Below the pieces are notes generated by a model, which had not been told where the DNA came from, ran no database searches, and saw nothing but the letters and a program-made list of their open reading frames with translations. This document shows, one piece after another, positions 3,001-50,717 of a stretch of DNA of 64,000 nt. The DNA comes from Macrosoma leucophasiata. Taxonomy: Eukaryota; Arthropoda; Insecta; Lepidoptera; Hedylidae. The stretch covers positions 11,009,501 to 11,073,500 of the forward strand of contig JAWQUS010000032.1 in the NCBI GenBank assembly GCA_036365455.1. The letters run 5' to 3'. The position numbers were made by a program, and so were the translations under genes. The first letter of the stretch is position 1. Every line of letters begins with the position of its first letter.

Positions 3001-6000
3001 CACATCAAGTCTACGAAACAGACAATGGGCTAGTTTCGACTTCGTAGAGCGTTATCTCTGCTGCACACTGTCAACGTAAGCACTGATAGTCCGGTATTGG
3101 TCAAAACTTGATCGAAATGGTCGACAAATGGCACATAGGTAAGTTGCGAAAGAGATAACGCTCTACGATCCGAAATAAACCGAAGTCTAATTATAGATAT
3201 AGAAGTACAATTTCCTCTTTTCAAAAGCCACTATATACGAATAATTGTTAGCAATACATGTCGCTATTCCCACCCCACGGCAATGGAATGTGAAGGAAAA
3301 ATTCGACAGTCAGGGACTTCGGTAGCTCAGTTGAGAGAGTGACCGGACTAGAGTTCCCAGTTCACGGGTTCAAGTCTAATGTTTCTTTAAAAAATATACG
3401 AATCGCCCCATATCTCACCTTCCTTAACTTCCTCCAAGCCTATCTTCCTCCCAACTTGGTCTCCAAGCCCACTCAACAACAACTGACGTAGAAGCCTCGC
3501 TTGGTTGTCGTCGGGCGGCTTCATGTCTGGATCTATCCTCACATCCACACCCGATACACTGAGACTGATCTCGGATGACAATTGCTTGCGAAGTTTGCGT
3601 ATTTCTTTGACCGCCTAGAAGAAAAGTAATATATTTTATAAGTTTGTAACTTGATGGCCTAGAACAAAGGTATAATATATCTAAGTTTGTATCTAGAAGT
3701 CGAATTCGAGATTGAAGTATACGCTTTACTTTCTTGTAGACCCTCCGTAATAAATAAAGATTATCTGAGGAGTATTCAATATTTTTATTTTTTTTTTAAA
3801 GAAAAATGGAAAGAAAAATTTGGCTTCAGGCGAGGCTCGAACTCGCGACCTACTGGGAATCTAGTCCAGCCGCTCTTCCAATTGAGCTACTGAAGCCCTG
3901 CCCGATTTGTCAAATCTTTCCTTCACATCTATTGCATTGCTTTTATGGTAGCAGTAGCGCCATCTATTACCAACTATGCTAGTTAGGCAACCGATATAAT
4001 AGACTTTTCAGTTTATTGAATATCGTAAAGAAGTCGCTTTTACCCTTAATAATTGTTTTGATATTATTTCGCATTAACACATGCTTGTGAAATATATTTT
4101 TATTTTTTTAAAGAAAAATGGAAAGAAAAATTTGGCTTCAGGCGAGGCTCGAACTCGCGACCTACTGGGAATCTAGTCCAGCCGCTCTTCCAATTGAGCT
4201 ACTGAAGCCCTGCCCGATTTGTCAAATCTTTCCTTCACATCTATTGCATTGCTTTTATGGTAGCAGTAGCGCCATCTATTACCAACTATGCTAGTTAGGC
4301 AACCGATATAATAGACTTTTCAGTTTATTGAATATCGTAAAGAAGTCGCTTTTACCCTTAATAATTGTTTTGATATTATTTCGCATTAACACATGCTTGT
4401 GAAATATATTTTTATTTTTTTAAAGAAAAATGGAAAGAAAAATTTGGCTTCAGGCGAGGCTCGAACTCGCGACCTACTGGGAATCTAGTCCAGCCGCTCT
4501 TCCAATTGAGCTACTGAAGCCCTGCCCGATTTGTCAAATCTTTCCTTCACATCTATTGCATTGCTTTTATGGTAGCAGTAGCGCCATCTATTACCAACTA
4601 TGCTAGTTAGGCAACCGATATAATAGACTTTTCAGTTTATTGAATATCGTAAAGAAGTCGCTTTTACCCTTAATAATTGTTTTGATATTATTTCGCATTA
4701 ACACATGCTTGTGAAATATATTTTTATTTTTTTAAAGAAAAATGGAAAGAAAAATTTGGCTTCAGGCGAGGCTCGAACTCGCGACCTACTGGGAATCTAG
4801 TCCAGCCGCTCTTCCAATTGAGCTACTGAAGCCCTGCCCGATTTGTCAAATCTTTCCTTCACATCTATTGCATTGCTTTTATGGTAGCAGTAGCGCCATC
4901 TATTACCAACTATGCTAGTTAGGCAACCGATATAATAGACTTTTCAGTTTATTGAATATCGTAAAGAAGTCGCTTTTACCCTTAATAATTGTTTTGATAT
5001 TATTTCGCATTAACACATGCTTGTGAAATATATTTTTATTTTTTTTAAAGAAAAATGGAAAGAAAAATTTGGCTTCAGGCGAGGCTCGAACTCGCGACCT
5101 ACTGGGAATCTAGTCCAGCCGCTCTTCCAATTGAGCTACTGAAGCCCTGCCCGATTTGTCAAATCTTTCCTTCACATCTATTGCATTGCTTTTATGGTAG
5201 CAGTAGCGCCATCTATTACCAACTATGCTAGTTAGGCAACCGATATAATAGACTTTTCAGTTTATTGAATATCGTAAAGAAGTCGCTTTTACCCTTAATA
5301 ATTGTTTTGATATTATTTCGCATTAACACATGCTTGTGAAATATATTTTTATTTTTTTAAAGAAAAATGGAAAGAAAAATTTGGCTTCAGGCGAGGCTCG
5401 AACTCGCGACCTACTGGGAATCTAGTCCAGCCGCTCTTCCAATTGAGCTACTGAAGCCCTGCCCGATTTGTCAAATCTTTCCTTCACATCTATTGCATTG
5501 CTTTTATGGTAGCAGTAGCGCCATCTATTACCAACTATGCTAGTTAGGCAACCGATATAATAGACTTTTCAGTTTATTGAATATCGTAAAGAAGTCGCTT
5601 TTACCCTTAATAATTGTTTTGATATTATTTCGCATTAACACATGCTTGTGAAATATATTTTTATTTTTTTAAAGAAAAATGGAAAGAAAAATTTGGCTTC
5701 AGGCGAGGCTCGAACTCGCGACCTACTGGGAATCTAGTCCAGCCGCTCTTCCAATTGAGCTACTGAAGCCCTGCCCGATTTGTCAAATCTTTCCTTCACA
5801 TCTATTGCATTGCTTTTATGGTAGCAGTAGCGCCATCTATTACCAACTATGCTAGTTAGGCAACCGATATAATAGACTTTTCAGTTTATTGAATATCGTA
5901 AAGAAGTCGCTTTTACCCTTAATAATTGTTTTGATATTATTTCGCATTAACACATGCTTGTGAAATATATTTTTATTTTTTTTAAAGAAAAATGGAAAGA

Positions 6001-9000
6001 AAAATTTGGCTTCAGGCGAGGCTCGAACTCGCGACCTACTGGGAATCTAGTCCAGCCGCTCTTCCAATTGAGCTACTGAAGCCCTGCCCGATTTGTCAAA
6101 TCTTTCCTTCACATCTATTGCATTGCTTTTATGGTAGCAGTAGCGCCATCTATTACCAACTATGCTAGTTAGGCAACCGATATAATAGACTTTTCAGTTT
6201 ATTGAATATCGTAAAGAAGTCGCTTTTACCCTTAATAATTGTTTTGATATTATTTCGCATTAACACATGCTTGTGAAATATATTTTTATTTTTTTTAAAG
6301 AAAAATGGAAAGAAAAATTTGGCTTCAGGCGAGGCTCGAACTCGCGACCTACTGGGAATCTAGTCCAGCCGCTCTTCCAATTGAGCTACTGAAGCCCTGC
6401 CCGATTTGTCAAATCTTTCCTTCACATCTATTGCATTGCTTTTATGGTAGCAGTAGCGCCATCTATTACCAACTATGCTAGTTAGGCAACCGATATAATA
6501 GACTTTTCAGTTTATTGAATATCGTAAAGAAGTCGCTTTTACCCTTAATAATTGTTTTGATATTATTTCGCATTAACACATGCTTGTGAAATATATTTTT
6601 ATTTTTTTTAAAGAAAAAAAAACTACTATACAAGCATAAAAGCAATGCAATAGATGTGAAGGAAAGATTTGACAAATCGGGCAGGGCTTCAGTAGCTCAA
6701 TTGGAAGAGCGGCTGGACTAGATTCCCAGTAGGTCGCGAGTTCGAGCCTCGCCTGAAGCCAAATTTTTCTTTCCATTTTTCTTTAAAAAAAATAAAAATA
6801 TATTTCACAAGCATGTGTTAATGCGAAATAATATCAAAACAATTATTAAGGGTAAAAGCGACTTCTTTACGATATTCAATAAACTGAAAAGTCTATTATA
6901 TCGGTTGCCTAACTAGCATAGTTGGTAATAGATGGCGCTACTGCTACCATAAAAGCAATGCAATAGATGTGAAGGAAAGATTTGACAAATCGGGCAGGGC
7001 TTCAGTAGCTCAATTGGAAGAGCGGCTGGACTAGATTCCCAGTAGGTCGCGAGTTCGAGCCTCGCCTGAAGCCAAATTTTTCTTTCCATTTTTCTTTAAA
7101 AAAATAAAAATATATTTCACAAGCATGTGTTAATGCGAAATAATATCAAAACAATTATTAAGGGTAAAAGCGACTTCTTTACGATATTCAATAAACTGAA
7201 AAGTCTATTATATCGGTTGCCTAACTAGCATAGTTGGTAATAGATGGCGCTACTGCTACCATAAAAGCAATGCAATAGATGTGAAGGAAAGATTTGACAA
7301 ATCGGGCAGGGCTTCAGTAGCTCAATTGGAAGAGCGGCTGGACTAGATTCCCAGTAGGTCGCGAGTTCGAGCCTCGCCTGAAGCCAAATTTTTCTTTCCA
7401 TTTTTCTTTAAAAAAATAAAAATATATTTCACAAGCATGTGTTAATGCGAAATAATATCAAAACAATTATTAAGGGTAAAAGCGACTTCTTTACGATATT
7501 CAATAAACTGAAAAGTCTATTATATCGGTTGCCTAACTAGCATAGTTGGTAATAGATGGCGCTACTGCTACCATAAAAGCAATGCAATAGATGTGAAGGA
7601 AAGATTTGACAAATCGGGCAGGGCTTCAGTAGCTCAATTGGAAGAGCGGCTGGACTAGATTCCCAGTAGGTCGCGAGTTCGAGCCTCGCCTGAAGCCAAA
7701 TTTTTCTTTCCATTTTTCTTTAAAAAAATAAAAATATATTTCACAAGCATGTGTTAATGCGAAATAATATCAAAACAATTATTAAGGGTAAAAGCGACTT
7801 CTTTACGATATTCAATAAACTGAAAAGTCTATTATATCGGTTGCCTAACTAGCATAGTTGGTAATAGATGGCGCTACTGCTACCATAAAAGCAATGCAAT
7901 AGATGTGAAGGAAAGATTTGACAAATCGGGCAGGGCTTCAGTAGCTCAATTGGAAGAGCGGCTGGACTAGATTCCCAGTAGGTCGCGAGTTCGAGCCTCG
8001 CCTGAAGCCAAATTTTTCTTTCCATTTTTCTTTAAAAAAATAAAAATATATTTCACAAGCATGTGTTAATGCGAAATAATATCAAAACAATTATTAAGGG
8101 TAAAAGCGACTTCTTTACGATATTCAATAAACTGAAAAGTCTATTATATCGGTTGCCTAACTAGCATAGTTGGTAATAGATGGCGCTACTGCTACCATAA
8201 AAGCAATGCAATAGATGTGAAGGAAAGATTTGACAAATCGGGCAGGGCTTCAGTAGCTCAATTGGAAGAGCGGCTGGACTAGATTCCCAGTAGGTCGCGA
8301 GTTCGAGCCTCGCCTGAAGCCAAATTTTTCTTTCCATTTTTCTTTAAAAAAATAAAAATATATTTCACAAGCATGTGTTAATGCGAAATAATATCAAAAC
8401 AATTATTAAGGGTAAAAGCGACTTCTTTACGATATTCAATAAACTGAAAAGTCTATTATATCGGTTGCCTAACTAGCATAGTTGGTAATAGATGGCGCTA
8501 CTGCTACCATAAAAGCAATGCAATAGATGTGAAGGAAAGATTTGACAAATCGGGCAGGGCTTCAGTAGCTCAATTGGAAGAGCGGCTGGACTAGATTCCC
8601 AGTAGGTCGCGAGTTCGAGCCTCGCCTGAAGCCAAATTTTTCTTTCCATTTTTCTTTAAAAAAAATAAAAATATATTTCACAAGCATGTGTTAATGCGAA
8701 ATAATATCAAAACAATTATTAAGGGTAAAAGCGACTTCTTTACGATATTCAATAAACTGAAAAGTCTATTATATCGGTTGCCTAACTAGCATAGTTGGTA
8801 ATAGATGGCGCTACTGCTACCATAAAAGCAATGCAATAGATGTGAAGGAAAGATTTGACAAATCGGGCAGGGCTTCAGTAGCTCAATTGGAAGAGCGGCT
8901 GGACTAGATTCCCAGTAGGTCGCGAGTTCGAGCCTCGCCTGAAGCCAAATTTTTCTTTCCATTTTTCTTTAAAAAAATAAAAATATATTTCACAAGCATG

Positions 9001-12000
9001 TGTTAATGCGAAATAATATCAAAACAATTATTAAGGGTAAAAGCGACTTCTTTACGATATTCAATAAACTGAAAAGTCTATTATATCGGTTGCCTAACTA
9101 GCATAGTTGGTAATAGATGGCGCTACTGCTACCATAAAAGCAATGCAATAGATGTGAAGGAAAGATTTGACAAATCGGGCAGGGCTTCAGTAGCTCAATT
9201 GGAAGAGCGGCTGGACTAGATTCCCAGTAGGTCGCGAGTTCGAGCCTCGCCTGAAGCCAAATTTTTCTTTCCATTTTTCTTTAAAAAAATAAAAATATAT
9301 TTCACAAGCATGTGTTAATGCGAAATAATATCAAAACAATTATTAAGGGTAAAAGCGACTTCTTTACGATATTCAATAAACTGAAAAGTCTATTATATCG
9401 GTTGCCTAACTAGCATAGTTGGTAATAGATGGCGCTACTGCTACCATAAAAGCAATGCAATAGATGTGAAGGAAAGATTTGACAAATCGGGCAGGGCTTC
9501 AGTAGCTCAATTGGAAGAGCGGCTGGACTAGATTCCCAGTAGGTCGCGAGTTCGAGCCTCGCCTGAAGCCAAATTTTTCTTTCCATTTTTCTTTAAAAAA
9601 ATAAAAATATATTTCACAAGCATGTGTTAATGCGAAATAATATCAAAACAAGTATTCAATATGTATTTTAACTCCAGAAATTAACTTCGACGAGTTCGAG
9701 GTGCATGCATATTTTTACACCTTTGCTACCCCGTCGGGGAATACAGGTATGAAGTTACGTCACGTTACGTAGCCCCGTTAACCGAAAGGTAGGAAGGGAA
9801 AGGGGAGGTGGTGGGCAGATAGAAGTAGACGAGTAAAGAAATTGGATTGACTCCAACTATGCGAGAAAATTCAAAAATGTTAAATAATGTTTTTTTTATA
9901 TCTTCACGCCAGGTCCCTAACGGAGGTAGGCAGAGTGTAAAGCGCCAGATATCCCGGTCCTGACATACCTTCCGTGCCTCATCTACCTTCATCATTCTCT
10001 TCATATATGCACGCCGATTCCTAAGTCTAATAAACTAATAGACTAAATAATTATCAACTAGGTATACCTTTTCCCGTAGACCATATTTGGCGCAGAACAA
10101 TTCCTCTTCGCCTTGCACATGAGCGTATTCCGCCGCGCCCGCCGCCCGTAAGAGCACTCCGGGGTCGCCCAGCAACAGTGTGTTGCCTGTGGCCGGCCAG
10201 TTATCCGCTTTGCCACTCATTACCTGCAGGATTGTAATATTTATTCGGTTTTGCGACTAGATATATTAATTTTTCTTTTTAAAGTGAAAAGGACAAAGTC
10301 AGAAATTATATAGAACTTTGACCCACCTGCAGAGTTGTTTACTAACATGGCGAATACATCTTTTTGCTAAGATTTTATCACTGATTATTTAACACACTTT
10401 TAATCACTTTTAAACTTGTAGTTTGTGTGTAAACTAAAGACAGTAATCACATTAGGGCTCTTTTTAATTGTCACCAGACCCCGTATCCTGACCTCTTATT
10501 GCGATTTAATTTTGCTATTTAATACAATCGCTTTTCGGGTAAATCTATGACACTAATGTTGACCGATACCTAGATTGTCAACATTTTGATAATAAAAACA
10601 TCGTATGTAATTATTTAAAAAGAATGTTATTATTAATAACACGTACGAAAAAAATAAATTTGGATAAAAACTAACTAACCCCTCTATTCATATCTCTATC
10701 ATTAACGTATTTTAGCTAAAGTGTTGCTAATGCTCACCTTTGTCTTTTTCTATCCTGCACATTTGACAATGCAACTGACAAAGACAAAGCATTCTATGGC
10801 TAAAACGTATTTAATGTACGTTTATGAATACTTTGTGTGGTTAAAACTTGAGTTAACTTGAACGTTTTAAAGTATTATATTATTAATTTGAGTAACGCAA
10901 TTGATTGAAATTCTAATTAGAACAAACTTAATATTAACGAAAGATTATTTTCTAATTATAATTATTAACCTTAAGTGTAATAGAAAAAAGATGAACTAAC
11001 AAAGGTTTCTATTTTCAAAACATACTTTTTCTTTAATTTACATTTCGTGTAAATAGTGGGTCACAGGCTGGCTTTGTCATTTCTTTAACATCATAGTGTT
11101 TTGAAAGTCGATTAACGAAAAAGGGACTGTGTGTGACAAAGTGTTCAGTTTCACATATCACAAGCCCCTCTTATTTAGTTGGCCTCAAATACAGAGCGAG
11201 CTAAGCTTACGCAGGCAAATTCACTCAGCAGCATTTTAATTTTGCACGTACCGTAATTTGCAGTGGAATATCTAAATCTCATTTAAACTGACGTAACTTA
11301 AGTATACAACCTATAAAAAATACAAATATATCACCTCGGGCACAGTCAGTGCTGACACGAGGGTGATGGTGTACGGCAGTAAGTTCTGTTGGTGGCTGAG
11401 CGCCAACATCTTGCCGTACCGTGGCAGCAGTGGAAACGCTGACACTGCTTTACCTAGGGGCGTCACTTTGAGGATCTGTAAAGAAAAAAATAACTAAGTA
11501 AGATTTTTACTGTTGGTAGAGCTCCAGTGACGTAGCTCGCGGGCGTAGGCACCACCGCATAACCTAATATACTTGTCGCAAAATGGTAGTGTTCAGCACT
11601 ATCGTGTTCCGGTCAGGTGGTTATGTACGGCCCTGTAATTTCCGGCACAGAGGCATAACACCTTAGGCCTCAGCAGTGACAACGCATCTGTATTTTGATT
11701 CCTCTGGTCATTGTGTGGGTGCCTATAGGCTGCAGTCATCACTTAACATTGATGTAAACTGCATGCTTGTTTGCCAATTTCATTGCATAAAAAAAAAATC
11801 AAAAAAAAAGTTTACATCCACAGCTCCACACTAGACATAAAGATCGGCCTAAGTGTCGGTGCCGTTGTACACACACACTACACAAAACTCAAGCCCGAAA
11901 CAAACATTTGTATACCCTTCAAATATTGATGAAGCGGTCCTCACGCTCCACTGAACCAATGGATTTTTATACATATATTTTCTTTTTAACTGGCAAACAA

Positions 12001-15000
12001 GTATGCATTTCTCTCGGATGATAAGTTAATACTGCAGCTTATAGTATAAAAACTGCAAGTCTCAATGCAGATGCGTTGTTACTAAGATCTTTTGCCCATG
12101 TGCCTGAAACCACGGGTTATAGCCCCGTGGCCGTATGACACTTCCACCTAACGGAATCAGTTTTATTTTTATACAAGCTGACCCGGCAAACTTCGTATTG
12201 CCTTAGAATGAAAATATGACATGTGTCAAAGGTTTGATACATACGGACTATTTGTATGGGAAAATGAAATGGTGGTTTTTACTATTTCCCTTCAATTTCT
12301 TCATATTTTCTTACCTTTTAAACATTCCCTGGACTTCCAAAAATCATTCAAAATCAATACTAGCTAAATCGGTCCAGCCATTCACGCGTGATGCCGTGAC
12401 CAAGGAAAACGGGTTGCATTTTTATATATATAGCTAATGGAAGTAGCAAACAAGCATGCAGTTGACATTGATGTTAAGTGATGACTGCAGCCTATAGACA
12501 CCCACACAAAGACCAAGGTCAAAATGCAGATGCGTTACCACTCCTGAAGCCTAGTGTTATGCCTTTGTGCCGGAAGTTACAGGGCCGTACATTACCACCT
12601 GACCGGAACACGATAGTGCTGAACACTACCTTTTAGCGGAAAGTATATTAGGTAATGCGGTGGTGCCTACGCCCGCGAGCTTTGTCACTGGAGCCAGTAA
12701 AACGCCACCAGTAAAACAAAACATATTCAATTACAACAGATACATCAAGTAATGCTTTGGTGCTTACGCCTTTCAGCTCACTAGAAATCTACCACCGATC
12801 GGTCGAGATAAAAGTACCAAGTATTGAGAACACTTACCTCCTCTACTTCTCTTTTGTTCTTAGATTCGTGTTTCTCTAGTATGCCGATTATTTCAAGACG
12901 TTTTTCTGCCAGTCGCAATTGCATCCGGTCTGGGGCAGTGGGGAACGGGAAATTGACTACCTAAAACAACAAAATATTAAGCGATAATTTAGCAAGCTGA
13001 CATTAATACTCAATACTCAATACTCAATACTTTATTGCACCATAATGTACCTACAACATTAGGATTATGGTCCCTGTTGGGCACCGCAATGTAGGAGAGA
13101 GGATGATTTATACTCAATTAAATACCTAGTATTTTAACATATACAGACCTACATTACTTATATTATTACTATAATTTATTAATATTTTAATTTAATTTTA
13201 CTTTGTACTTATATCTTTTTCTTGAAAGAATTCATTAATGCTGTAATAGGATTTATTTAATAAAATTTTCTTTAATTTGGTCAAAAATGTTTTATCATTA
13301 TCTAAGTTTTTTAATTTTTCAGGTAGATGGTTGTATATTTTAATGGACGTTGGATAAGTGCTGGAAGAGTGGAGGTTTAGTCGAGATGGGGGTAGCGTTA
13401 GTTTATTTTTGTGTCTTAAATCCTTGATGAATATGTCGCCTCGTTTTTCGTATAAATTTGGATGATTTCGGACAAATTTACAAATTTCAAGAATGTAGAT
13501 GCAGGGTAGAGTGAGGATTTTTAATTGCTACACAACTTCCTTTCTGATTTAATGGTAAAATAAGCGGCTAAATGAGCGGTAAAATAAGAGGATCCACTTC
13601 GATCTGCTCGATCTGTGAGTCTAGACAGTTTTCAATCTGATACCCTTGTAGTTTCTGGCCAACTTAATCTCCCATCAGCAACTAGGTTTATCTATTTACT
13701 CTCTATAGCCCGATCTGCATCCATGATATTACCTACGAGACATTTTTGAGCGATAGTGTTGGTTTTACCTACCAGTTTCTCTAGCGGTAGTCGGTTGAAA
13801 TAAAAGCGAAGTCAATTTTTTCTTTCCGTTTTTTCTATAATTTCTAAAGTTCACACGCATGTGTTATTGCGAAAAATAAATAGTACAGTTTCTCTAGCGT
13901 TTTGTTTCTTCTCCATCCTCTTACCAGATTTATCTCCATATTTCTCCATATTTTTTTTCAGCATAACGGTCCTATATATTACCCTAGTTCATCTAGAATC
14001 TTTAATTCGCTTACACTAATTCGCTTACACTCACAGCCCCTCAGTAGGTATAAACCAGTGTCGTAGGTGCCGTTGTACACATACAACACATACACAAACA
14101 TTTGTCCCGGTGCGGGGATCGAACCCGCCACCCTTCGAATCAAACGGTTATCTCACACCGCTGGACTAACCGGGTCGTCAATCTTTGAAGCTCAACATTA
14201 CTTATTTAATCGTATGGCAGTCTGTAGAATAGGCGAATACACAAAAATTATAATTATAAGTCTACATTCAGATTTCTTAACCAATTGGCTGCGTCTTCAG
14301 TTAAATTGTAGATTTCTTATTTGGGTCCCAGGTAAGAATGTATTGATGCTCAACATTATGAATAGAGTATAGACTAACCTTATCGATGCCCATACATTTC
14401 ATCTGCAAGACCAAATCATCTACAGGCCTGCGACAGAGGTCAGGCGGGTGATGGTCGGGGCAGTCGTGCTGGAACACAGCGGTGCTGTACAACCGGTACG
14501 CGTGTCCGGCCGCTGTACGTCCGGCACGACCGGACCGTTTCTCACTCGCTTCAGAATACTTTAATTGACTTCATGATGGTACTTATCTCGGACGGATTAG
14601 AAGACCAATATTGGAGGAGACACAATTGAAATTGTCATATTTTTCTCGTGACTTTGTTGAGAAGGGTTGAGACGCAGAGAGCCAAAATAAGTCCTAGTTT
14701 TCGATGTCATGGTCCTGCAGGTTCTGGCCATTTAACTATCCACCAGTAACTAGGTACTGACGACGATATAAATTACGCTCTTTACGTCCAGTTTTTCTCT
14801 TTACGCAATTAACTTTCTCTACTGAGCCCATATCCATCCTCTTCCATACCTTTGAAATAACTATGAGCAGAGCCTTTTTGTTGACAAAAATCTAGAATCT
14901 TTGAAGCTCATCAGTCCACAGTGTAAATAGAGTATAGACTAACCTTATCGATGCCCATACATTTCATCTGCAAGACCAAATCATCTACAGGCCTGCGACA

Positions 15001-18000
15001 GAGGTCAGGCGGGTGATGGTCGGGGCAGTCGTGCTGGAACACAGCGGTGCTGTACAACCGGTACGCGTGTCCGGCCGCTGTACGTCCGGCACGACCGGAC
15101 CGTTGGTCGGCACTCGCTTTAGACGTCCATACTACTCGCCACGCACTAGCGCCAGTACCGTGGTCGTATACGCTGCAGAAACAAAATGCCTCTTTGTAGA
15201 AACTTCGATGGTTCGGTGGTCGAAAACTACGAAGTTCTTGTTCTTTTTCTTTCTAGTATATATCACTTTTATAATTTACGTTAATATTTGGCGCGTCCGG
15301 CAAAGCGTCATAGCTTAAATAAGTAGATCGACTATTACTCGTAAACTTGTAGAGTCTACTAATATGTGACAGTTTTCCTAAACATCATATTTTTTGTCAG
15401 ATTATATATTTCAGTCTAGTACTTGTACATATAGGTCAATGGTAAATACAGTGAGTCTTATCAAATATTGTAGAGTGTGAGTATGTTATGTAAAGTTTAT
15501 AAATTGACAAAACTCAAGCAGAGGTAAGTAGTTAATACAAAGGCTGGAATGCACCAACATTTGTTAAAGTTATAGTTAGTATATTTTACATCCTTATCTA
15601 ACTTTATCAAATTTGTTACAGTAGTTAGAGAAGGGTGTGAAATGTTACATTAACTTAAAAAATATCTTGCTTACTGTTTGTATTTTGTGATGATCGAGAA
15701 TTCGTTAAAAAAAAGTGTTCTCAATTTAAATTTAATTAGCACTAAAACTTACAGGCAGGTCAGACTTGTCAACAACTTGTCAATCGAGTTTTTGGCGGGA
15801 ACCTTGAAAGTGGCGTGTGGTGCTCTTATTTTATTTCATTTTCTTGGTGTATTTTTAAGTTATATTGAATAAAGTTGGTGGCATTTTGTTTGATATAGGT
15901 TTATTACAGTGCCCGTGTATAGTGAAATAGAATAACAGTGCGAAAACACGACCTTTCAGGTTCATTGTAAATGTTCTGGTAAAGTAGCCATCGCTTTACT
16001 CGAATAACTTGACTGTCATACCTTATGAATAATTGACTGACTATATTGTACTAACTTTTACGCTGCTTAAATAAATACGAAATATCGTTTTACTTGACAC
16101 TGGCAATATGCGTAATAGCGATGCCATAATTAAAAAAAAAACTTACAGGCAGCTCTTGGGCATTTCGAAAAATTCGTTAAATAGAGTAAATATATTGAGT
16201 TATGAGGTTAAACCGTATATTGACTTATCACTTACCGCATCTTTTTCTTCCCAGTGTCAACGACATACTTAATAAACGGTATAGTGAGGGATGTCTCGGC
16301 CACGTCAGTACTGACAATACACAGTCTAGCTCCAACTGGGGGTGGAGCGAACACACGTGCCTGTTTCTTTGAGTTGAGCATAGAGTATAGAGGTAGCACC
16401 CATAAAGGTTGTCGGCAGGATTTTATTGCTGGAGTTAGGTCATCTTCTTCTTGATCTGTAAATGAAGAAAGTTGAACTAATGCCCCCTGGTGGGATGTAC
16501 CCCAGGTTATAGTTTTATTTCCCAGTCGATGGTATTGAAAATATATCAATAGGTACTAAAGTTTTTACTGGTGGTAGAGCTCCAGTGACGGAGCTCGTGG
16601 GCGTAGGCACTACCGCACTACCTAATATACTTGCCGCTAAATGGTAGTGTCCAGCACTATTGTGTTCCGGTCAGGTGATAATGAACGGCCCTGTAATTTC
16701 CGGCACAGAGGCATAACACCTTAGGCCTCAGGAGTGGTAATGCATCTGTATTTTGACCTCGGTCTTTGTGTGGGTGTCTATAGGCTGCAGTCATCACTTA
16801 ACATCAATGTGAACTGCATGCTTGTTAGCCACGTCCGTAACAAAAAAAAAAGTGAAACTATCGATACTATCGAAACACGTCGATATCGTAGTATGGATAG
16901 TATCGTGTTCAAAAATATAAATATAATACTTCAATAGTATCGATAGTATTGGCAAAATTCAATACTATCACCTTAATTCCAATATCGATACTATCGATAG
17001 TGTTGCAGCATGTCGATATTTTCGATAGGACTATCGCGCTATCGACTGTTTTTCGAGGTCAACTATCGATAGCGCAACTATCGATAGTTTAGCAACACTA
17101 ATCACAATCACTTAATTATCACACTTATTACATAAACCAAACTTGAGCGTTCCCTTTCGAGGTTATAGTATCAATCGTCCGTTGCTAACATTGTCACTTT
17201 TTAAATAGCCTAATTTTACCGGCAAGTAACACCACAGCGCCAAAGTTGCGTTCTTTAGCCGTTAAATGCGACACTAGCGACGACACCGCCAAAGTTGCTT
17301 GCGTCAACCGATAGATGCGACAACACAGTTCATGACATAAAAAAAAAACACTAACCTGAGTCGCTCAAATGTCCCTCGCTATCGCCATCGCTTCCCACCA
17401 AATCCGCTTGACCGTCGTCTTCGGGCATGTCGTAATCGTCCAAATTTATCTTTGGAAGAGTCTTTATTTTTTTCTTTGCTTTCCGTCGCGCTTTCTTCGC
17501 TCTTTTCATTTCTTTTTCTACCTGCGGACAGCAATCTAAGCTGTGATATATTATAAGAGAGGTCATTTTACTCATCTTCATGAAGAACTTAAACTGCCTC
17601 AGTAGCCTAGTGGTAGCAGGCCACTACTATTACGCTGGGGTCCTGGGCTCGGGGGCCTATCAGAGATAATGGTGTGAAATGCTTTAAGCCTGGTTCTATT
17701 TTCCATTTTCAGGACTACCTAAACTATCTGCTGCCAAATGGTAGTGTTCAGCAGTTTTTACTGGTGTAGAGCTCCAGTGACGGAGCTCGCGGGCGTAGGC
17801 GCCACCGTATTACCTAATATACTTGCCGCTAAATGGTAGTGTTCAACACTATCGTGTTCCGGTCAGGTGGTAATGTATGGCCCTGTAATTTCCGGCACAG
17901 AGGCATAACACCTCAGGAGTGGTAACGCATCTGCATTTTGACCTTGGTCTTTGTGTGGGTGTCTATAGGCTGCAGTCATCACTAAACATCATACTGGAGG

Positions 18001-21000
18001 GGAGTAGCCATAGCGTTTATTACCGATGCAAAACAGTCTTTCATCTTTTGTGAGGGGAAATGCGTGCGACACACACGCACACTACAAAAGTCGTCTATTA
18101 CAACGAAACTCACACCTTGACTTTAACAAAATACAGAAACAATTTCACGCACACATTTAAACATCTAGGCAACAGGTATAGGCCCATTTGGGCTTGTACT
18201 TTGACAGAGGGGAATGTCTGAATATGGCTACTCACCTCCGGTGTTGCTGATGTGAGCTGCATGCTAGTTTGCCATTTCCATTACATAAAAAAAAATGGTA
18301 GTGTTCAGCAATATCGTGTTCCGATTGGATGGTAATGTAAGGCCCCGTAATAAAAATCACAGACACATAACAATTTAGGTCTCAGGGGTGGACACACATC
18401 TGCATTTTGACGTCTGGTTTTTGTGTAGATTGTTTTAACAGTAACTGCTGTACGACTGTGGAATTCCTTGCCCTTAAACATAAGGCAAGCACAGACTCTT
18501 GAGTCGTTTAAAAAACGACTCTTTGACTACTACTTTGCTTCTTTAACTTAACATCATCAATCCTATTGCAATATTATTAAGTTTTGTGTTTTAATTAGGT
18601 TTATATATTTATGAAATGTGTGTACCTATTTATTTATTTATTCACAATGTTTGTCCTTAATTTGATGTACACCCTGCCTCTGTAATTTCACATTTCTCTT
18701 TCCACCGACAAGTTGTCTGGAAGAGATCGCTTTTAGCGATAAGACCAATTGATTGTACTTTCACTTTGTTTTTTCTATTTTTGTTTTTATTGAACATTAC
18801 TGGTGTACAATAAAGAATATTTACTTACTTACTTTTAAGGCTACAGTCATCACGTAACATCAATGTGAGCTGCACGCTTGTTGCCACGTTCCTTACATAA
18901 AAAAATACCTCATCGTCATCTGACTCAATATCTTCAGGTTCGGAGTCTAGAGCAGCATCAGCCTCCTTCGTCGCCTTCTTAGTGATCAACTTTGAGTAGT
19001 CCACGTCTTTCCGATAGGGGAACGAAGCTTTTAGCTTGCGTATTAAATAATGCACCTGAAAAAAATAAGGTTCGGTTGCACCACAATAATTACAAAACTT
19101 ATATTTTTGTCAAATTTAACAAAAACAGTAACATTAACTATAGCAGTGACTGTGAAAGAAATTCTACGACGCCAAGTGTTGCGTCGCTCGGCGTCGGGAC
19201 GCTAGGCGTCGGGATGTTCGACATCGCGACGCTCGGCGTCGGGACGCTCGGCGTCGGGATGCTCGGCGTCGTGTTACTAGGCGTCGGTTCATTCGGCGTC
19301 GTGTTACTAGGCGTCGGGTCATTCGGCGTCGGGACGCTCGGCGTCGTGTTGCTAGGCGTCGGGACGCTCGACGTCGGGACGCTCGGCGTCGGGACGCTCG
19401 GCGTCGGGACGCTCGGCGTCGGGATGCTTGACGTCGTGTTACTAGGCGTCTGGACGCACGGCGTCGTGTTACAAGACGTCGGGACGCTCGGCGTCGGGAC
19501 GCTTGACGTCGTGTTACTAGGCGTCGGAACTCTCGGCGTCGGAACGCTCGGCGTCGTGTTGCTAGGCGTCGGGACGCTCGACGTCGGGACGCTCGGCGTC
19601 GAGACGCACGGCGTCGTGTTACAAGGCGTCGGGACGCTCGGCGTCGGTATGCTCGGCGTCGGGACGCTTGACGTCGTGTTACTAGGCGTCGAGACTCTCG
19701 GCGTCGGGACGCTCGACGTCGGGACGCTCGGCGTCGGGACGCTCGGCGTCGGGACGCTCGACGTCGTGTTGCTAGGCGTCGCGACGCTTGACATCGTGTT
19801 ACTAGGCGTCGGGACGCTCGGCGTCGGGACGCTCGGCGTCGGGACGCTCGGCGTCGAGATGTTCGACATCGGGACGCTCGGCGTCGGGACGCTCGGCGTC
19901 GAGACGCTCGGCGTCGGGACGCTCGGCGTCGGGATGCTCGGCGTCGTGTTACTAGGCGTCGGTTCATTCGGCGTCGTGTTACTAGGCGTCGGGTCTTTCG
20001 GCGTCGGGACGCTCGGCGTCGTGTTGCTAGGCGTCGGGACGCTTGGCGTCGTGACGCTCGACGTCGGGACGCTCGGCGTCGGGACGCTCGGCGTCGGGAT
20101 GCTTGACGTCGTGTTACTAGGCGTCGGGACGCACGGCGTCGTGTTACAAGGCGTCGGGACGCTCGGCGTCGGGACGCTTGACGTCGTGTTACTAGGCGTC
20201 GGAACTCTCGGCGTCGGGACGCTCGGCGTCGTGTTGCTAGGCGTCGGGACGCTCGACGTCGGGACGCTCGGCGTCGGGATGCTCGACGTCGGGACGCTCG
20301 GCGTCGGGACGCTCGGCGTCGGGACGCTCGGTGTCGGGATGCTCGACGTCGTGTTACTAGGCGTCGGGACGCACGGCGTCGTGTTACAAGGCGTAGGGAC
20401 GCTCGGCGTCGGTATGCTCGGCGTCGGGACGCTCGACGTCGTGTTGCTAGGCGTCGGGACGCTCGGCGTCGGGTCGCTCGACGTCGTGTTACTAGGCGTC
20501 GGGACGCTCGGCGTCGTGTTACTAGGCGTCGGGTCATTCGGCGTCGGGACGCACGGCGTCGTGTTACAAGGCGTCGGGACGCTCGGCGTCGGGACGCTTG
20601 ACGTCGTGTTACTAGGCGTCGGAACTCTCGGCGTCGGGACGCTCGGCGTCGTGTTGCTAGGCGTCGGGACGCTCGACGTCGGGACGCTCGGCGTCGGGAT
20701 GCTCGACGTCGGGACGCTCGGCGTCGGGACGCTCGGCGTCGGGACGCTCGGCGTCGGGATGCTCGGCGTCGTGTTACTAGGCGTCGGTTCATTCGGCGTC
20801 GTGTTACTAGGCGTCGGGTCTTTCGGCGTCGGGACGCTCGGCGTCGTGTTGCTAGGCGTCGGGACGCTTGGCGTCGGGACGCTCGACGTCGGGACGCTCG
20901 GCGTCGGGACGCTCGGCGTCGGGATGCTTGACGTCGTGTTACTAGGCGTCGGGACGCACGGCGTCGTGTTACAAGGCGTCGGGACGCTCGGCGTCGGGAC

Positions 21001-24000
21001 GCTTGACGTCGTGTTACTAGGCGTCGGAACTCTCGGCGTCGGGACGCTCGGCGTCGTGTTGCTAGGCGTCGGGACGCTCGACGTCGGGACGCTCGGCGTC
21101 GGGATGCTCGACGTCTGGACGCTCGGCGTCGGGACGCTCGGCGTCGGGACGCTCGGTGTCGGGATGCTCGACGTCGTGTTACTAGGCGTCGGGACGCACG
21201 GCGTCGTGTTACAAGGCGTAGGGACGCTCGGCGTCGGTATGCTCGGCGGCGGGACGCTCGACGTCGTGTTGCTAGGCGTCGGGACGCTCGGCGTAGGGTC
21301 GCTCGACGTCGTGTTACTAGGCGTCGGGACGCTCGGCGTCGTGTTACTAGGCGTCGGTTCATTCGGCGTCGGGACGCTCGGCGTCGTGTTACTAGGCGTC
21401 GGGTCATTCGGCGTCGGGACGCTCGGCGTCGTGTTGCTAGGCGTCGGGACGCTCGGCGTCGTGACGCTCGGCTCGGGACGCTCGGCGTCGGGACGTTCGG
21501 CGTCGTAACGCTCGGCGTCGAAACGCTCGGCGTCGTGTTAAAAGGCGTCGGGACGCTCGGTGTCGTGTTACTAGGCGTCGGGACGCTTGGCGTCGTGTTA
21601 TTAGATTTCGGGACGCTCGGCATCGGGACGCTCGCCGTCGGGTTACTAGGCGTCGGGATGCTCGGCGTCGGGACGCTCGGCGTCGTGTTACTAGGCGTCG
21701 GGACGCTCGGCGTCGTGTTACTAGGCGTCGGGACGTTCGGCGTCGTGTTGCTAGGCGTTGGGACGCTCGGCGTCGTGTTACTAGGCGTCGGGACGCTCGG
21801 CGACGTATTGCTAGACGACGAGACGCTCGGCATCGGGACGCTCGGCGTCGGGACGCTCGACGTCGGGACGCTCGGCGTCGTGTTACTAGGCGTCGGGACA
21901 TTCGGCGTCGGGACGCTTGGCGTCGGGACGCTCGGCGTCGTGTTGCTAGGCGGCGGGACGCTCGGCGTCGCTTCGTTAGGCGTTGTGACGCTTGGCGTCG
22001 GGACGCTCGGTGTCATGTCGCTAGGCGTCGGGACACTTGGAGTCGTATTGCTAGGCGTCGGAATGCTTTTGTTCAAATGTGTAACTGCTTGATACCTTCT
22101 GAAAGTAAGCACAAAATTAAAACGAATGTCTTTCATTCTCACCTCCTGCTGTCCTGTAACGAATATTAGAATTCCTCCCTCAGGAAGACGTGTATGTATT
22201 TTGACTGTTTTCTTGTAAACTTCCTTCAAATAATCACTGTATGTGTTTTTATTGAAATGAACCGTCACTGGAAATTGTCTGGCATCTATCTGTTGAAAAA
22301 AAATAGACGATAAATATGTAAAATAACATTAAACATCAGCAGCAACAACTGATTGAAATACGTGAAAATTCTTTTAACATCGGAATTCTGAGCAAATAAT
22401 TATAAACACTGCCTCATATCCTAATCTGCCTAACTATAGGCAGCTGCAAATCCGAATATTCAATCCTATTTATTCCATCTTCCGTTTATCAATAAGGAAT
22501 ATTGCTGTCCATTTTTTAAAGGACCACTGTCAGTGGGCTGATCAAGAGATTACCAACCACATAAGTCTCATGCGTCCCCCCATAACGCCCGCCAAGGGAT
22601 CGCCCTTAAGCAGTTTCGTAAATGAGACATTCCATAAATGTATGGAGCTTGGGCCTGCATCTTGAACTATATTGAGAGAAGAAGCATAAAAATACTAAAT
22701 CATTTACAGATATCCCAATATTATACCTTCAATTAATAGTCATACATATATTTAAAAAACAATGTCATAGTAACAATATGGTGACAAAAAACAATTCATA
22801 TTATTTGTTGAGTATTTTTCCATGATTCTACGTATTTTTCTATAGTATATCTTTTGATATATAAGGTTGGGGAAAAAGTTTCTTCGCATTTTTTAAGATA
22901 ATTCAAAACATTTATTAATATGGTTTATTTAAATTTAACTAAAGTATGTATGTACCATTTTGTTCGATAACCTTTTGCCATCTTGTAGGTAGGGACATGA
23001 TCCCATTGCTATAAAAATTTTGGGACTTCTCATCAAAATACCGCGACAAGTGGATTTGACAGTCCTCTCGTGATGTTAACCTAACATTGCATAGAGTATT
23101 CCGAAGAGACCGAAACAGGTGGAAATCTGAAGGTGCAAGGTCAGGACTATACGGCGGATGCATTAACACCTCCCAGCCAAACTCTCTTAATTTTTGCTGA
23201 GTGGCTATAGATGTGTGAGGTCTAGCGTTATCATGATGAAACACCACACCCCTTCTGTTGATCAATTCCGGCCGCTTTCTTTCAACTTCTTGCTTTAATC
23301 TCATCAGTTGTTCGCAGTAGAGTTCAGAATCGATAGTCCTGCCTGGTGGTAATAGCTCATAATGAATAATGCCCTTCCAATCCCACCACACACACAACAT
23401 CACCTTATTGCGAGTTAACCCGGGTTTCGCCAGTCTGTGAAGCCTGACCGGCCTTTGACCACGACCTTTTTCGCACGTTCTTGTCGTACGTGATCCACTT
23501 TTCATCACCAGTTATCAGCTTCTTCAAAAATGATTCGGTTTCATTACGTCGTAATAAAGAATCGCAAATGAGTACACGGTTCATTAGGTTTCTTTCAGTG
23601 AGCTCGTGAGGTACCCAAATATCGAGCTTTTTTTTGTACCCAGCTTTTTAAAAATGCGCCAAAACTGTTTTGTGATCAATTCTCAGTTCTTCAGCTACGT
23701 CGTAACTACAGATATGTCGATCTTGCTCCATTTTTTCAAAAATGGCATTTATTTTATCCGTAATAAGGCGACCAGAGCGAGGTGCATCTTTGACATCAAA
23801 ATTTCCGGATTGAAAACGCTTAAACCAAATTTGTGCTACTCTCACAGACACTGCACTAGGTCCATAAACATCGCAAATTTTTTTCGCGGCTTGCGTTTCA
23901 TTTTTACCTTTTTTGTAGTAAAATTTTAAAATGTATCGAATTTCTTCATTAGATTCACTCATCTTGACAGTACGAACAAATGAAAATCACACATTTGCCT

Positions 24001-30478: not shown

Positions 30479-33400
30479 TGTTGAGGTTCGTGTTTTAATG
30501 AAAAATAATTGTTTATTAATTTTCACAAGATCGATTTTATTCGTAACTAAGACGTTAAAAATTCTAACAAAAATGTATATGACAATGACATTCTATTTTT
30601 ATAAACAATTAAAAATAAATCGACGTCCAAACTCCTTTTACATCCTCCCTTTTGGACTAGCCCTATATTTGCTGATATAATTGCCATTCTTGGCCTATGT
30701 AGAGCTTTAGTCAGGATGTCAGCCAGTTGGAATTCCGTTGGCACATATTCTACGCATATATCGCCATTCGTCACAAGTTCCCTGATGTAGAAATGTCTTA
30801 TAGCAATATGCTTGATGCGTCTATGCATATCAGGATTTTGGGAAATTCTGATGGCAGCTATGTTATCAACCTTAAGCTTGGGTACTTCTTTCAGGCTTGA
30901 TATTTCACCGAATAATCTCTTAAGCCATACAATTTCTCTTGCTGCTTCACTATATGCCACTAATTCAGCTTCAGTGCTCGATATAGCAACACAGGTCTGT
31001 TTTCGACTACACCAGGATATAGCAGCTCCTGAGTACATACATATGATGCCAGACGTCGAACGTCCTGTTGTCATATCTCCTGCGTGATCTGAGTCGCTGT
31101 AGCATTCTAAAATGCCTGTCTTGTAGCCTTTCTTATAAATGATGCTCGAGTCTAAAGTTCCTTTTACATATCTTAGAATACGCTTGACTTTGACAACGTC
31201 ATCTTTTGTAGGTTTATCCAGAACTCTGGATACCACGCTCACAGCGTAAGCTAGGTCTGGTCTACTTCCTACCATTAAGTAAGCCAAGGCTCCCACAGCT
31301 TCTCTATAAGGAAAAGAGTGTACCTCTTCAGTACCATTTTCAGATTCTGTAGGTCCATCTTTTATTATTGGTGTTGATACGGGCTTACAGTCCGTCATTC
31401 CAAAGCGATCTATGACTTTGGATGCATAGTGCTTTTGTGATAATCTCACGCCATCTTCCGTTTTGTCAATCTCGAGACTTAAAAAGTATGTAAGTGGCTT
31501 TGCAGTTATCTTGAACCTTCTCTTCAGCTCTAAAATAAATTTATCTGAGTCCTTAGGGTTCTTACTTGCTACAAGTCCGTCGTCAACATAGAGAGCCAAT
31601 ATAATTTTATTGCTACTAGTGTTCCTTGTGAACAAGCATGGATCATTATCACATTGATTAAATCCAATACTTTTCAAATAATCTACTATGCATCGGTTCC
31701 AACATCTAGGTGCTTGTTTTAATCCATAGAGGCTTCTCTTTAGTTTACAAACTTTACCTGTGCCATCACTATAGCCTTCCGGCTGTTTCATATAAATTTC
31801 CTCATTCAACGTACCGTTAAGAAAGGCTGTAGAAACATCGAATTGAGTTAAATTTAGACCTTCATTTGCAGCAATGCTCAATACTGATCTTATTGTAGTC
31901 ATTTTGGCCACTGGACTGAATGTCTCCTCATAATCTATTCCTTTCTTCTGTGTGTATCCTCGAGCAACAAGCCGAGCTTTGAATTTGTCTAGAGATCCAT
32001 CAGCATTGGTTTTAGTCTTGTATACCCATTTACAGGAAATCGTTTTTCTGTCTTTTGGTAGTGGTACTAAAATCCACGTCTTCATCTCTTTGAGAGATTT
32101 TATCTCACTATCCATAGCTTTTAGCCATTGTTCTCTTTGAGGACTTGTCACAGCTTCTTTGTACGTAGTTGGATCTTCTTGACACAAACTTTCAGCGTAT
32201 GACATCATTACATAGTCATTATATCTGATCGATGGTCTTATCTTGGATCTATCCCTTAACTGAATAGTCCTTTGACCTTCATCTTCAATTTCTCTAAAAG
32301 ATATTCCACCTATCTGATCTAAATCTTCTGGCATTTCAACTACTTCATTTCCTTCTTCAGTACATTCGTACTCCAAGGATGTAGGTAAAACTGATTGATC
32401 TTCAGATCTCTGGTCGCAATGTCTAGAGGTCTCTGAAACAGGTTCTATAATAGAAGAGACTGGAACTGAACCTGAATCACCATTTCTTTCAAATAAATCA
32501 TTCGATTCAAGAGGCACATCAATAGAATTAGGTTTATCATTTGTACGAAATTCTCTATGATTACTATTATCCTCCCTTGCTTCATGCATTGGATGATTTT
32601 CTGTGTCAATTGGTACATGAATGTCTATCACTTTCTTATGTTCAAGTTCTTCTTCTTCTAGACCTACTGATTCAATGACATTTTCTTTAAATGTTACGTC
32701 TCTAGATCTGATCAGGTTATATTTGCCATTTTGATTAGCCAAAAGTCTGTACCCATCGTCTCCGTCATAACCAATCAATATACATTTCTGAGCTTTCCTT
32801 GACAACTTTGTTCGCTTCTGCTTGGGTACATGGGCGTAACACTCGGTGCCAATTATCTTCAAATGTTTAATTGATGGTTTTTTATTAAACCAGAGTTCAT
32901 GTGGTGACTTCTCTTCTTCAGAAGTTGGAGCAGTTCTGTTAAAAATGTAAGATGCTGTCATAATTAGTTCTGCCCAAGATGCAACGGGTAATTCTTCATG
33001 AGCATGCATCATACTACGAGCGGCCTCAACCAAAGTTCTATTTTCTCGCTCACTACACCCATTTTGTTGTGGTGTGTAAGGCATAGTCAACCTTTGTTTT
33101 ATACCTTCTCTATGTAGTATTTGTCTTACTTTTTCATTATCGAATTCACCTCCATTGTCACTGATGATTTCTTTAACAGTGAGTCCATTTATTTTACATT
33201 CCTTTATCATTTGTTCTAGCTTCATATGTACTTCAGACTTATGTCTTAGGAAGTACACATGTCTGTACTTACTGTAATCATCTTTGAACAAAAGAAAATA
33301 TTTATTCTTATTGAAAGAATTAGGAAAAGGACCACAAACATCCGTATGTATTCTTTCTCCGGGATTATTAGCTCTATCTCTTGTTCCAAACTTCCTTCTG

Positions 33401-40691: not shown

Positions 40692-40802
40692 GCTACACCA
40701 GTGATTCCCAAAGTGGTTTATATCGACCCCTGGGGGTCTATAACAAACTAATAGGGGTAAGCGTGGGCGAAAAAAAATTTGGGGATCCATGAAATGATAA
40801 TG

Positions 40803-47439: not shown

Positions 47440-48055
47440 GGCGGCAAACAAGCATGCAGTTTACATTGATGTTAAGTGGTGACTGCAGCCTATGGACATC
47501 CGCCCAAAACCAGAGGTCAAAAATTGTTTTATATTATTTCGCATTAACACATGCTTGTGAAATATATATTTTATTTTTAAAGAAAAATGGAAAGAAAAAT
47601 AAAATATATATTTCACAAGCGTGTGTTAATGCGAAATAATATAAAACAATTATTAAGGGTAAAAGCGACTTCTTTACGATATTCAATAAACTGAAAAGTC
47701 TATTATATCGGTTGCCTAACTAGCATAGTTGGTAATAGATGGCGCTGCTGCTACCATAAAGCAATGCAATAGATGTGAAGGAAAGATTTGACAAATCGGG
47801 CAGGGCTTCAGTAGCTCAATTGGAAGAGCGGCTGGACTAGATTCCCAGTAGATCGCGAGTCAAAGGTCAAAAAGCAGATGCGTTGCCACCCCTGAGACCT
47901 TAGTTATAATGTCTCTGTGATAATTATTACAGGGCCATACATTACCATCTAACCGGAACACGATAGTGCTGACTACCATTTAGCGGCAGATGAATTAGGT
48001 AATGCGGTGGTGCCCAGGCCTTTGAGCTCCTACACTGGAACTTTACCACCAATGA
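47440..48055 (-). repeat. Dispersed repeat R1 split by the solitary tRNA-like unit
   Basis: The flanks 47440-47523 and 47864-48055 join across the insertion at the duplicated AGGTCAAAAA. It lies just upstream of FABP copy A's conserved promoter block. Confidence 0.8.
47524..47863 (+). mobile_element. Solitary tRNA-like unit with foldback end
   Basis: This is a single relative of the 312-bp array unit. Its left end is a perfect-looking inverted repeat (ATTGTTTTATATTATTTCGC... returning as ...GCGAAATAATATAAAACAAT by about 47649). After it come the same spacer and a 3'-truncated tRNA-like block from about 47805. A 10-bp duplication AGGTCAAAAA flanks it (47514-47523 and 47864-47873). It has split an older dispersed repeat, which resumes directly after it. 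Confidence 0.88.
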
Positions 48056-48239
48056 AAGTAAGTGAAGTAGATTAGGTAATGCGGTGCGGCGGTGCCTACG
48101 TCCGCGAGCTCCATCACTGGACCACTAGTCAATATGTCAGGGACAAAATGGAACTGACGAATCGTGGCCATTACCTATGCCTACTCTGTTTGAGGAATAC
48201 AGGCGTTAATTATGTACTTAGGTTTAGGTAAGTAAGTAG

Positions 48240-50385: not shown

Positions 50386-50717
50386 GCGTTATACCACCAA
50401 ACAATGACTATCACTTTTCTGGGGGTATGTTTTCGTCTAGGGCATTGTTTGGGTGCTGAACCAGGGACCAACCAACTTGCTGAGCACTTACGATTGTCGT
50501 TCAGGATCCATTTCTTGTCACAAGGAACAATGGGGTTCAAAATTCCACAATACATACGTATACCTGTTGAGCAGTGCAATTCACGTCTCGACGCGTGGAT
50601 GAATTGTCACCTAAGTCGCGCTGACAATCATTGAGTTCGTGGGGTACTCATTTGTCAAGAATGATTGATGAAAAATTTCAATTTCTTCCTTCCAAAAATT
50701 TGATAAGAAAAAAAAAG

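Follow-up and report, generated by a model that had tools for sequence, protein, structure and literature searches.

A palindromic array of 19 tRNA-like units in Macrosoma leucophasiata is one insertion of an abundant mobile element

Palindromes and tandem arrays are usually attributed to slow duplication at the DNA level. Among mobile elements, tRNA-derived short interspersed elements (SINEs) have a tRNA head with A and B boxes, a high copy number and target duplications, and in classical L1 twin priming (5' inversion) each of the two target ends acts as a primer on the RNA, different stretches of a single RNA molecule are copied, and microhomology is found at the inversion junction. Here we describe an array that is both tandem and palindromic, with 19 tRNA-like units in two head-to-head arms, in a 64,000-nucleotide stretch of the lepidopteran Macrosoma leucophasiata (Hedylidae; assembly GCA_036365455.1, contig JAWQUS010000032.1, positions 11,009,501 to 11,073,500, forward strand), hereafter referred to as the window. 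This array entered as a single insertion of a mobile element with a very high copy number, and dozens of such insertions of different ages suggest that the palindrome and the tandem array were both made in one retrotransposition event.

Other systems share parts of this architecture. In the available excerpts of two reports, animal retrozymes, which lack long terminal repeats (LTRs), have units of approximately 300 bp, range from dimers to long multimers, are low in G+C and give a structured non-coding RNA; in the model proposed there a circle is copied as multimeric complementary DNA (cDNA) (PMC7229834, PMC7761336). The Penelope elements of Adineta vaga, as far as the available excerpt goes, have head-to-head inverted repeats with a short tail on one inverted end, are flanked by 8-10 bp duplications and favour simple AT-rich targets, and the authors leave the replication cycle open (PMC3846280). 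Helenus terminal-repeat retrotransposons in miniature (TRIMs), again as excerpted, are non-autonomous retroelements with a tRNA-like promoter, LTRs, a primer-binding site (PBS), a polypurine tract (PPT) and 4-5 bp duplications (PMC10886601).

Layout, insertion and abundance of the array

All 19 tRNA-like units in the window lie within the array (ARAGORN and Rfam RF00005, 51.7 bits each), nine of them on the minus strand (3821-6396) and ten on the plus strand (6685-9571). Together they form a single 5,868-bp insertion bounded by 12-bp direct repeats. The parts are as follows, phase 1 of a unit being the first base of its tRNA-like part.

3771-3782 (no strand): left target-site duplication AGTATTCAATAT, a direct repeat that was compared with a control for such repeats
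3783-6618 (minus strand): minus arm, nine complete tRNA-like units plus ends; the outer left end is an A end, ...CTTTAAAAAAAAATAAAA
6619-6634 (no strand): 16-nt filler, the head-to-head centre
6635-9650 (plus strand): plus arm, ten tRNA-like units; the outer right end is a B end, ...GCGAAATAATATCAAAACA
9651-9662 (no strand): right target-site duplication AGTATTCAATAT
6998-7309 (plus strand): reference unit, 312 bp

A sequence-only reading of the window had delimited the array as 3771-9662, limits that coincide exactly with the outer edges of the two AGTATTCAATAT copies, with the target-site duplication going unremarked; since this range runs between two copies of a 12-bp direct repeat, we conclude that the array is an insertion. 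Measured from tRNA to tRNA, complete units are 312 bp long in 12 of 17 cases and 313 bp in five, and the 17 are identical once the A run is collapsed, its length being the sole difference. The joints between units are clean throughout. The reference unit (G+C 36.9%) comprises, in order, the tRNA-like part (phase 1-76), a T-rich trailer with a T5 run, an A-rich A site (approximately 103-121), a hairpin, a B site (approximately 146-165) and an upstream module (approximately 166-312). The A box starts at position 9, the B box at 56 and the T5 run at 80, and the minimum free energy fold of the tRNA-like part, labelled tRNA-Ser(AGA) by ARAGORN, has an anticodon stem of 5 bp and a loop of 9 nt. The sequence of the tail hairpin is GCATGTGTTAWTGCGAAA. 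Each unit also carries TAGATGGCGCTAC at phase ~244-256 (e.g. in 6998-7309), which we take to resemble the core of the CTCF consensus.

Thus, the nine units opposed to ten, the 312-bp period with homopolymer-only differences, the A box, B box, T5 run and 9-nt anticodon loop, and 19 potential RNA polymerase III (Pol III) units in one palindrome, all claimed in the sequence-only reading, are borne out. The palindrome itself holds for the inverted arms and fails for perfect symmetry at the centre, where the minus arm runs to ~6618 and the plus arm starts from ~6635 with the 16-nt filler between them.

The insertion of such a structure can be seen directly at a second, smaller family-1 locus in the window (W2; the large array is referred to as W1).

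47514-47523 (no strand): left target-site duplication of W2, AGGTCAAAAA
47524-47863 (no strand): W2, second family-1 insertion, 340 bp; minus arm of 82 nt, then plus arm of ~266 nt
47864-47873 (no strand): right target-site duplication of W2, 10 bp

The longer arm of W2 is ~97% identical to the unit, and the plan is the same, i.e., minus at the left and plus at the right. Its host sequence is an older repeat that is found many times over in the window. When the W2 flanks are joined, the result aligns to an unoccupied paralogue (16830-16563, 80% identical) with no gap where they meet. This empty paralogue is direct evidence that the inverted structure is acquired by insertion. The host repeat (47444-48123) is ~270 bp or more, its copies are mostly 74-87% identical to each other, and it is present in at least ten other places, e.g. 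16563-16830, 11505-11775 and 50717-50976.

The assembly searched (616 Mb, 61 contigs) contains 24,258 matches to a 30-base tRNA-like core at ≤2 mismatches (reversed-pattern control: 0), some of which may belong to close relatives. Family 2, which has another tRNA-like head and a homologous tail, is represented by 2,965 copies of a 53-base core at ≤3 mismatches (control: 0). In a genome with about 24,000 tRNA-like cores, a simple count of tRNA genes would be overwhelmed by them. No exact match to the unit was found in IMG/VR or in prokaryote genome scans, from which near records may be omitted. With so many copies of this mobile element in the genome, of which the array is one, the roles suggested in the sequence-only reading (insulator, Pol III RNA, fork barrier) find no support here and need not be invoked. 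That a host tRNA gene cluster or insulator has been retained here for its function is very improbable: the tRNA fold is good, with A and B boxes, and one acceptor-stem pair varies over 31 loci (G-C in 20, A-U in 7 and G-U in 3), yet this explanation has to contend with the 24,258 cores genome-wide, the target duplications, the 9-nt anticodon loop and the intronic site. The acceptor pair is the only one of 92 predicted pairs that is changed on both sides, and covariation is weak.

End pairs, orientation and unit identity among loci

The 61 family-1 loci comprise W1, W2, the 39 others of 40 scored loci and 20 of 22 later new loci. Their outer ends are of two main types: A ends at phase about 104-121, in the A-rich stretch ...CTTTAAAAATAAAA, and B ends at phase about 149-170, ...GCGAAATAATATMAAAC(AATT), which flank opposite sides of the predicted hairpin UAUUUC-ACAA-GCAU-GUGUUA-AUGC-GAAAUA. 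One A and one B end were present in 37 of the 39 inverted family-1 loci with both outer ends placed, with no A/A and no B/B locus; W2 and L024 were retained in this count as the two misfits. Left out were, among the first 41 loci, 11 one-arm loci and L030 (unclassifiable), and among the next 20, L076 (nested), L072 (gapped), L069, L071, L073 and L084 (beyond the fetched piece) and the one-arm loci L070, L078, L079 and L087. The nested locus (L076:72-1380), a nested or double insertion, has the order minus, plus, minus, plus.

The longest exact repeat between the ends was at least 9 bp (10-16 bp) in 30 of 41 loci versus 88 of 1,640 cross-locus pairings, and at least 12 bp in 24 of 41 loci versus 2 of 1,640. 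Among the 30 loci with an exact duplication of at least 9 bp, 23 were A/B, six had B and another end (five one-arm loci and the inverted W2), one had A and another end (the one-arm L025), and none was A/A or B/B. Four more inverted loci (L010, L021, L028 and L041) are A/B by phase, and in the later set all ten clean inverted loci are A/B, nine of them with a duplication of at least 9 bp. Both nicks weakly favour T|GT; a strand-lopsided target motif (N|GT) was dropped, being weak and common to both nicks. Two element classes were rejected on these grounds: an LTR/TRIM element, since the duplications are 10-16 bp and not of a fixed 4-6 bp, and a fold-back DNA transposon, since there are two different ends and the 10-16 bp duplications have no fixed length.

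Simple two-arm loci are all minus-then-plus, i.e., with the 3' ends outward, and the opposite orientation was not seen (0). A position-ordered sample (the first 100 exact matches on one contig, which form 69 clusters) gave 53 single copies, 11 minus-then-plus, five one-way and no plus-then-minus clusters; same-strand spacing in this sample was only 305-311, and ~0.7 chance neighbours were expected. As the orientation of two-arm loci is fixed, both arms would copy the same template strand if each target 3' end primes, and one template polarity is well supported. A double-stranded DNA template would permit both orientations, and one is seen among the simple two-arm loci.

Divergence was calculated for 141 complete units, with 27 loci having two or more. 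Within-locus substitution divergence is 0.00% in 12 of these 27 loci, the between-locus mean being 1.95%; six of the 12 have full units in both arms, and there both arms are identical. Moreover, rare variants fill whole arrays. The L021 variant is present in 12/12 units of both arms, six isolated sites being its only other occurrences, the L018 double variant is present in 7/7 units of both arms and nowhere else in the assembly (both by exact 28-mer search, 616 Mb), and the L019 variant is present in 6/6 units over both arms. The old arrays L031-L035 differ by 2.9-4.3% inside versus 2.3-3.3% to the nearest other locus. Because units within most old arrays differ from each other as much as units of separate loci do, the homogeneity of the arrays mostly dates from insertion and not from later conversion. 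A one-step origin of the array is therefore well supported, and so is the very recent amplification proposed in the sequence-only reading; its alternative, ongoing conversion, is not. The same reading had considered an assembly artefact, and long near-perfect palindromes are indeed hard to assemble; with dozens of loci that share the architecture and have private duplications and rare variants, and with non-repeat flanks, such an artefact is hardly conceivable.

We consider it unlikely that the array was built at the DNA level, either by expansion of a one-unit insertion through unequal exchange and palindrome gene conversion or by insertion of a small amplified DNA circle. Tandem and palindromic repeats can convert, the centre junctions resemble end joining, and two loci diverged from the others (L025 and L029) are rather uniform inside. 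However, most old arrays have not been homogenised, the simple two-arm loci have their 3' ends outward with one A and one B end in 37 of 39 loci, and a double-stranded circle would be expected to insert in either orientation and without an A/B rule.

A route on one RNA and the points against it

The phase of the arm junction varies by locus, with an overlap of 0-14 nt or a filler of up to 28 nt. No fine clustering was detected among 78 inner ends from 39 loci (75 close pairs versus 68.7 +/- 8.3, P=0.22), nor any association of these ends with predicted helix edges (next base paired in 69% versus 66%), and the scatter is in keeping with an RNA that lacks a fixed 5' end. A snap-back of a single cDNA was rejected; it predicts matching arms, but arm lengths and inner phases differ. 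The predicted fold of the 312-nt unit is more stable than that of shuffled sequences (z=-3.1 linear; z=-2.9 circular, with 2 of 100 shuffles as good); in it the tRNA-like part stands on an extended stem of leader and T-rich trailer, and one hairpin loop of the unit is GAAA or GCAA.

Given the insertion with its duplication, the A/B ends, the fixed orientation, the rare variants shared by both arms and the scattered inner ends that we observe, we think it probable, if some way from certain, that the array is one insertion of a tRNA-headed retroelement, target-primed from both cut strands on one repeatedly traversed RNA, which is most simply pictured as a circle. The element would be non-autonomous, with a unit of about 304-315 nt, and its reverse transcriptase would be borrowed from an autonomous partner element. 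The target would be cut with a stagger of 10-16 nt and both of its 3' ends would serve as primers, one cDNA starting 3' of the tail hairpin (the B site) and the other 5' of it (the A site). Both cDNAs would copy the same sense-strand RNA many times, in the simplest case a one-unit RNA circle, and their ends would be joined head to head via short microhomology or filler. The different starts may reflect two sites in one hairpin of one molecule or the use of different sites by the first and the second strand. We infer the RNA nature of the template, its circularity, its cutting and closing, and the involvement of such an enzyme; trimming of the RNA to unit length might be done by host RNase P or an enzyme like it, and our guess is that the tRNA-like part serves as an internal promoter and/or a processing signal. 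More tentatively, the element may be a ribozyme-free circular-RNA retroelement, in which the tRNA-like fold replaces the hammerhead, one tail hairpin sets two reverse transcriptase starts, and both cut strands are extended on the same circle to give a large palindrome in one step.

A variant that dispenses with the circle, and that we regard as somewhat unlikely though it may apply at some loci, is that read-through of a homogeneous array already in place yields a linear, multimeric RNA, on which both target ends prime reverse transcription. It explains the target duplications and the A/B ends equally well, there are arrays in which several units carry the same variant, and one-arm copies of more than one unit are common. 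Such a multimer can only shrink as its arms are copied, and it therefore fails to explain the birth of the 9-10-unit arms that occur; nor does it sit easily with an L018 double variant that has no second locus, an L021 variant that has no second array, and unit joints that are clean throughout the window array.

Family 2 bears on a further alternative. Among 20 family-2 loci read, 11 are A/B, eight are one-arm B and one is uncertain, and an exact duplication of at least 9 bp is present in 8 of 20. The arms overlap in several of them (e.g. L049, L050, L064 and L068), and classical L1 twin priming was rejected on this ground and because many family-1 arms exceed one unit. In one family-2 subfamily (L049-L068) an AAATTT-type run is present in 6/6 A arms and AATTTTTTC in 12/13 B arms; the A arm of L049 has a B-type run and, being unplaced in the subfamily, was excluded from this count. 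The differing arm markers point to two RNA molecules or an inherited inverted dimer in family 2, and the mismatch is a real difference between family 1 and family 2. For family 1, a head-to-head element that itself transposes, with A as its 5' end, B as its 3' end and centres lost by palindrome instability, is quite improbable. It would account for the A/B rule, with B-only copies as 5' truncations, as well as for the differently marked arms of family 2, and Penelope offers a precedent, as one of its inverted terminal repeats bears a tail (excerpt of PMC3846280). Against such an inherited dimer, family-1 centres vary by locus, both arms share rare variants, arm lengths are unequal, and the internal promoters point outward so that none of them makes such an RNA.

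Several observations count against a single insertion by two-ended priming on one repeatedly traversed RNA, and some concern the loci themselves. The first locus set consisted of the 40 top scorers and is biased to long young arrays. Several of the 12 zero-divergence loci match another locus at 0.00%, which makes their inner identity less telling. The L019 variant recurs in a second array (C20, 3 units), in one inverted pair and at 14 single sites, and the long A run found in 19/19 units of W1 recurs in other arrays; for the arrays with the L019 variant and the W1 A run, descent from array to array may have taken place. Two loci are more uniform inside than towards their nearest other locus, the diverged array L029 with 1.0% versus 2.0% and L025 with 0% versus 0.65%. 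The A/B rule does not hold for W2 (B at the left, phase 57 at the right) or for L024 (A and phase 178), the family-2 locus L055 may have B at both ends, and the two arms of family-2 loci carry different markers, for which selection bias is possible.

Other points concern the proposed RNA and its enzyme. Pausing of the reverse transcriptase driven by structure is not supported at the inner ends. The T5 run at position 80 lies ahead of the greater part of what is copied, and sequence upstream of the head is copied as well; T5 runs should stop Pol III, leaving the source of a unit-long RNA unexplained, and read-through is conceivable. No self-cleaving ribozyme was found on the unit (Rfam, E up to 10) and no CTGANGA hammerhead core on either unit strand; a genome-wide search for type I hammerheads gave no match, its controls being silent too. 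Rfam matches to HPnc0260, SpR14, CRISPR-DR64, MIR854 and psRNA6 were disregarded as far under the cut-offs. A GIY-YIG domain (PF01541) gave one match in the whole genome, with the control positive in 12 of 14 genomes, and a diverged endonuclease could escape this search; it did not find the partner enzyme, and long interspersed elements (LINEs) were not surveyed.

Surroundings of the array and comparison with known elements

The array sits in an intron of a DHX37-like DEAH helicase gene, as the sequence-only reading had placed it; the flanking exons align to DHX37 (7mqa), a further exon of the gene matches DHX37 with E=8.5e-35, and non-repeat sequence flanks the array on both sides. These exons and two further relatives of the element are located as follows.

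10062-10235 (minus strand): DHX37 exon, residues 842-883 of 7mqa (weak alone, E=0.041)
3381-3623 (minus strand): stretch with the next DHX37 exon, residues 884-949 of 7mqa (E=3.7e-9)
3243-3393 (plus strand): old relative, with 71% identity across part of the unit and the tRNA-like part
13787-13885 (plus strand): 5'-truncated family-2 copy with a B end and 14-bp duplications at 13773-13786 and 13886-13899

The old relative is flanked by the 10-bp ATATACGAAT at 3233-3242 and 3394-3403, as read by eye (the script found 7 bp). A transposase fragment (PF01359, Transposase_1; 22939-23511, minus strand) lies within the DHX37 gene region, and a coding-like segment is apparently duplicated at about 14.4-15.3 kb, with open reading frames near 14911-15318. 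G+C-rich minisatellites with 15-bp units, CGCTCGGCGTCGGGA-like and TGGGCGTCGGGACGC-like, occupy 19185-22045 (~2.9 kb) and 40801-43440 (~2.6 kb), and both yield long spurious open frames on both strands. A Ty1/copia-type polyprotein frame of 1,438 aa (30547-34863, minus strand) has gag, integrase and RVT_2 domains. The open frame at 35937-37901 (plus strand) matches a TFIIIC-type zinc finger (PF12660) with 22.1 bits, just under the cut-off of 23, and its nearness (~26 kb) to a Pol III-like array is probably a coincidence.

Among the literature matches listed no comparable element was present, most subscription journals being outside the search. Like L1 twin priming, the insertions appear to involve two priming target ends, and there is microhomology at the inversion junction; unlike it, both arms copy the same region, repeatedly in family 1. 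The likeness to tRNA-derived SINEs lies in the tRNA-like head with A and B boxes, the dispersed copies and the target duplications of variable length. Unlike Lepidoptera SINEs, however, the element has a long module upstream of the tRNA-like part, its copies run through the Pol III stop, and its insertions are inverted and two-armed; in the available part of a paper on Lepidoptera tRNA-derived SINEs the term 'tandem' is absent and 'inverted' occurs only in a reference (PMC8010984). Helenus TRIMs, as excerpted, likewise have a tRNA-like promoter within a non-autonomous retroelement, but they differ in their LTRs, PBS, PPT and 4-5 bp duplications, compared with 10-16 bp here.

With animal retrozymes, as the excerpts describe them, the element shares a tandem unit (312/313 bp) within about 150-450 bp, low G+C (36.9%), multimers and the idea of a circle. 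Retrozymes are defined by a hammerhead, whereas here a tRNA-like part with Pol III boxes stands in its place and no known ribozyme was found; the head-to-head arms and the A/B end rule also set it apart, 'inverted' having no match in the excerpt of PMC7229834. Penelope, as excerpted, is similar in its inverted head-to-head arms, an extra tail on one outer end (A/B), short duplications and AT-rich simple targets, and it differs in that the element described here is without protein coding, has 10-16 bp rather than 8-10 bp duplications, forms tandem arms of many units and occurs in a genome with only one GIY-YIG match.

If the route on one RNA is true, it would be a new way for a mobile element to build a large palindrome in a single event. 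The A/B rule sets a testable constraint on a reverse transcriptase that engages two target ends, a step left open in the Penelope literature as far as the excerpt of PMC3846280 goes, and the two-start rule, if true, may supply the missing step in Penelope replication. We therefore file the element as one that works like a retrozyme with Penelope-like insertion and that by our tests is a member of neither group.

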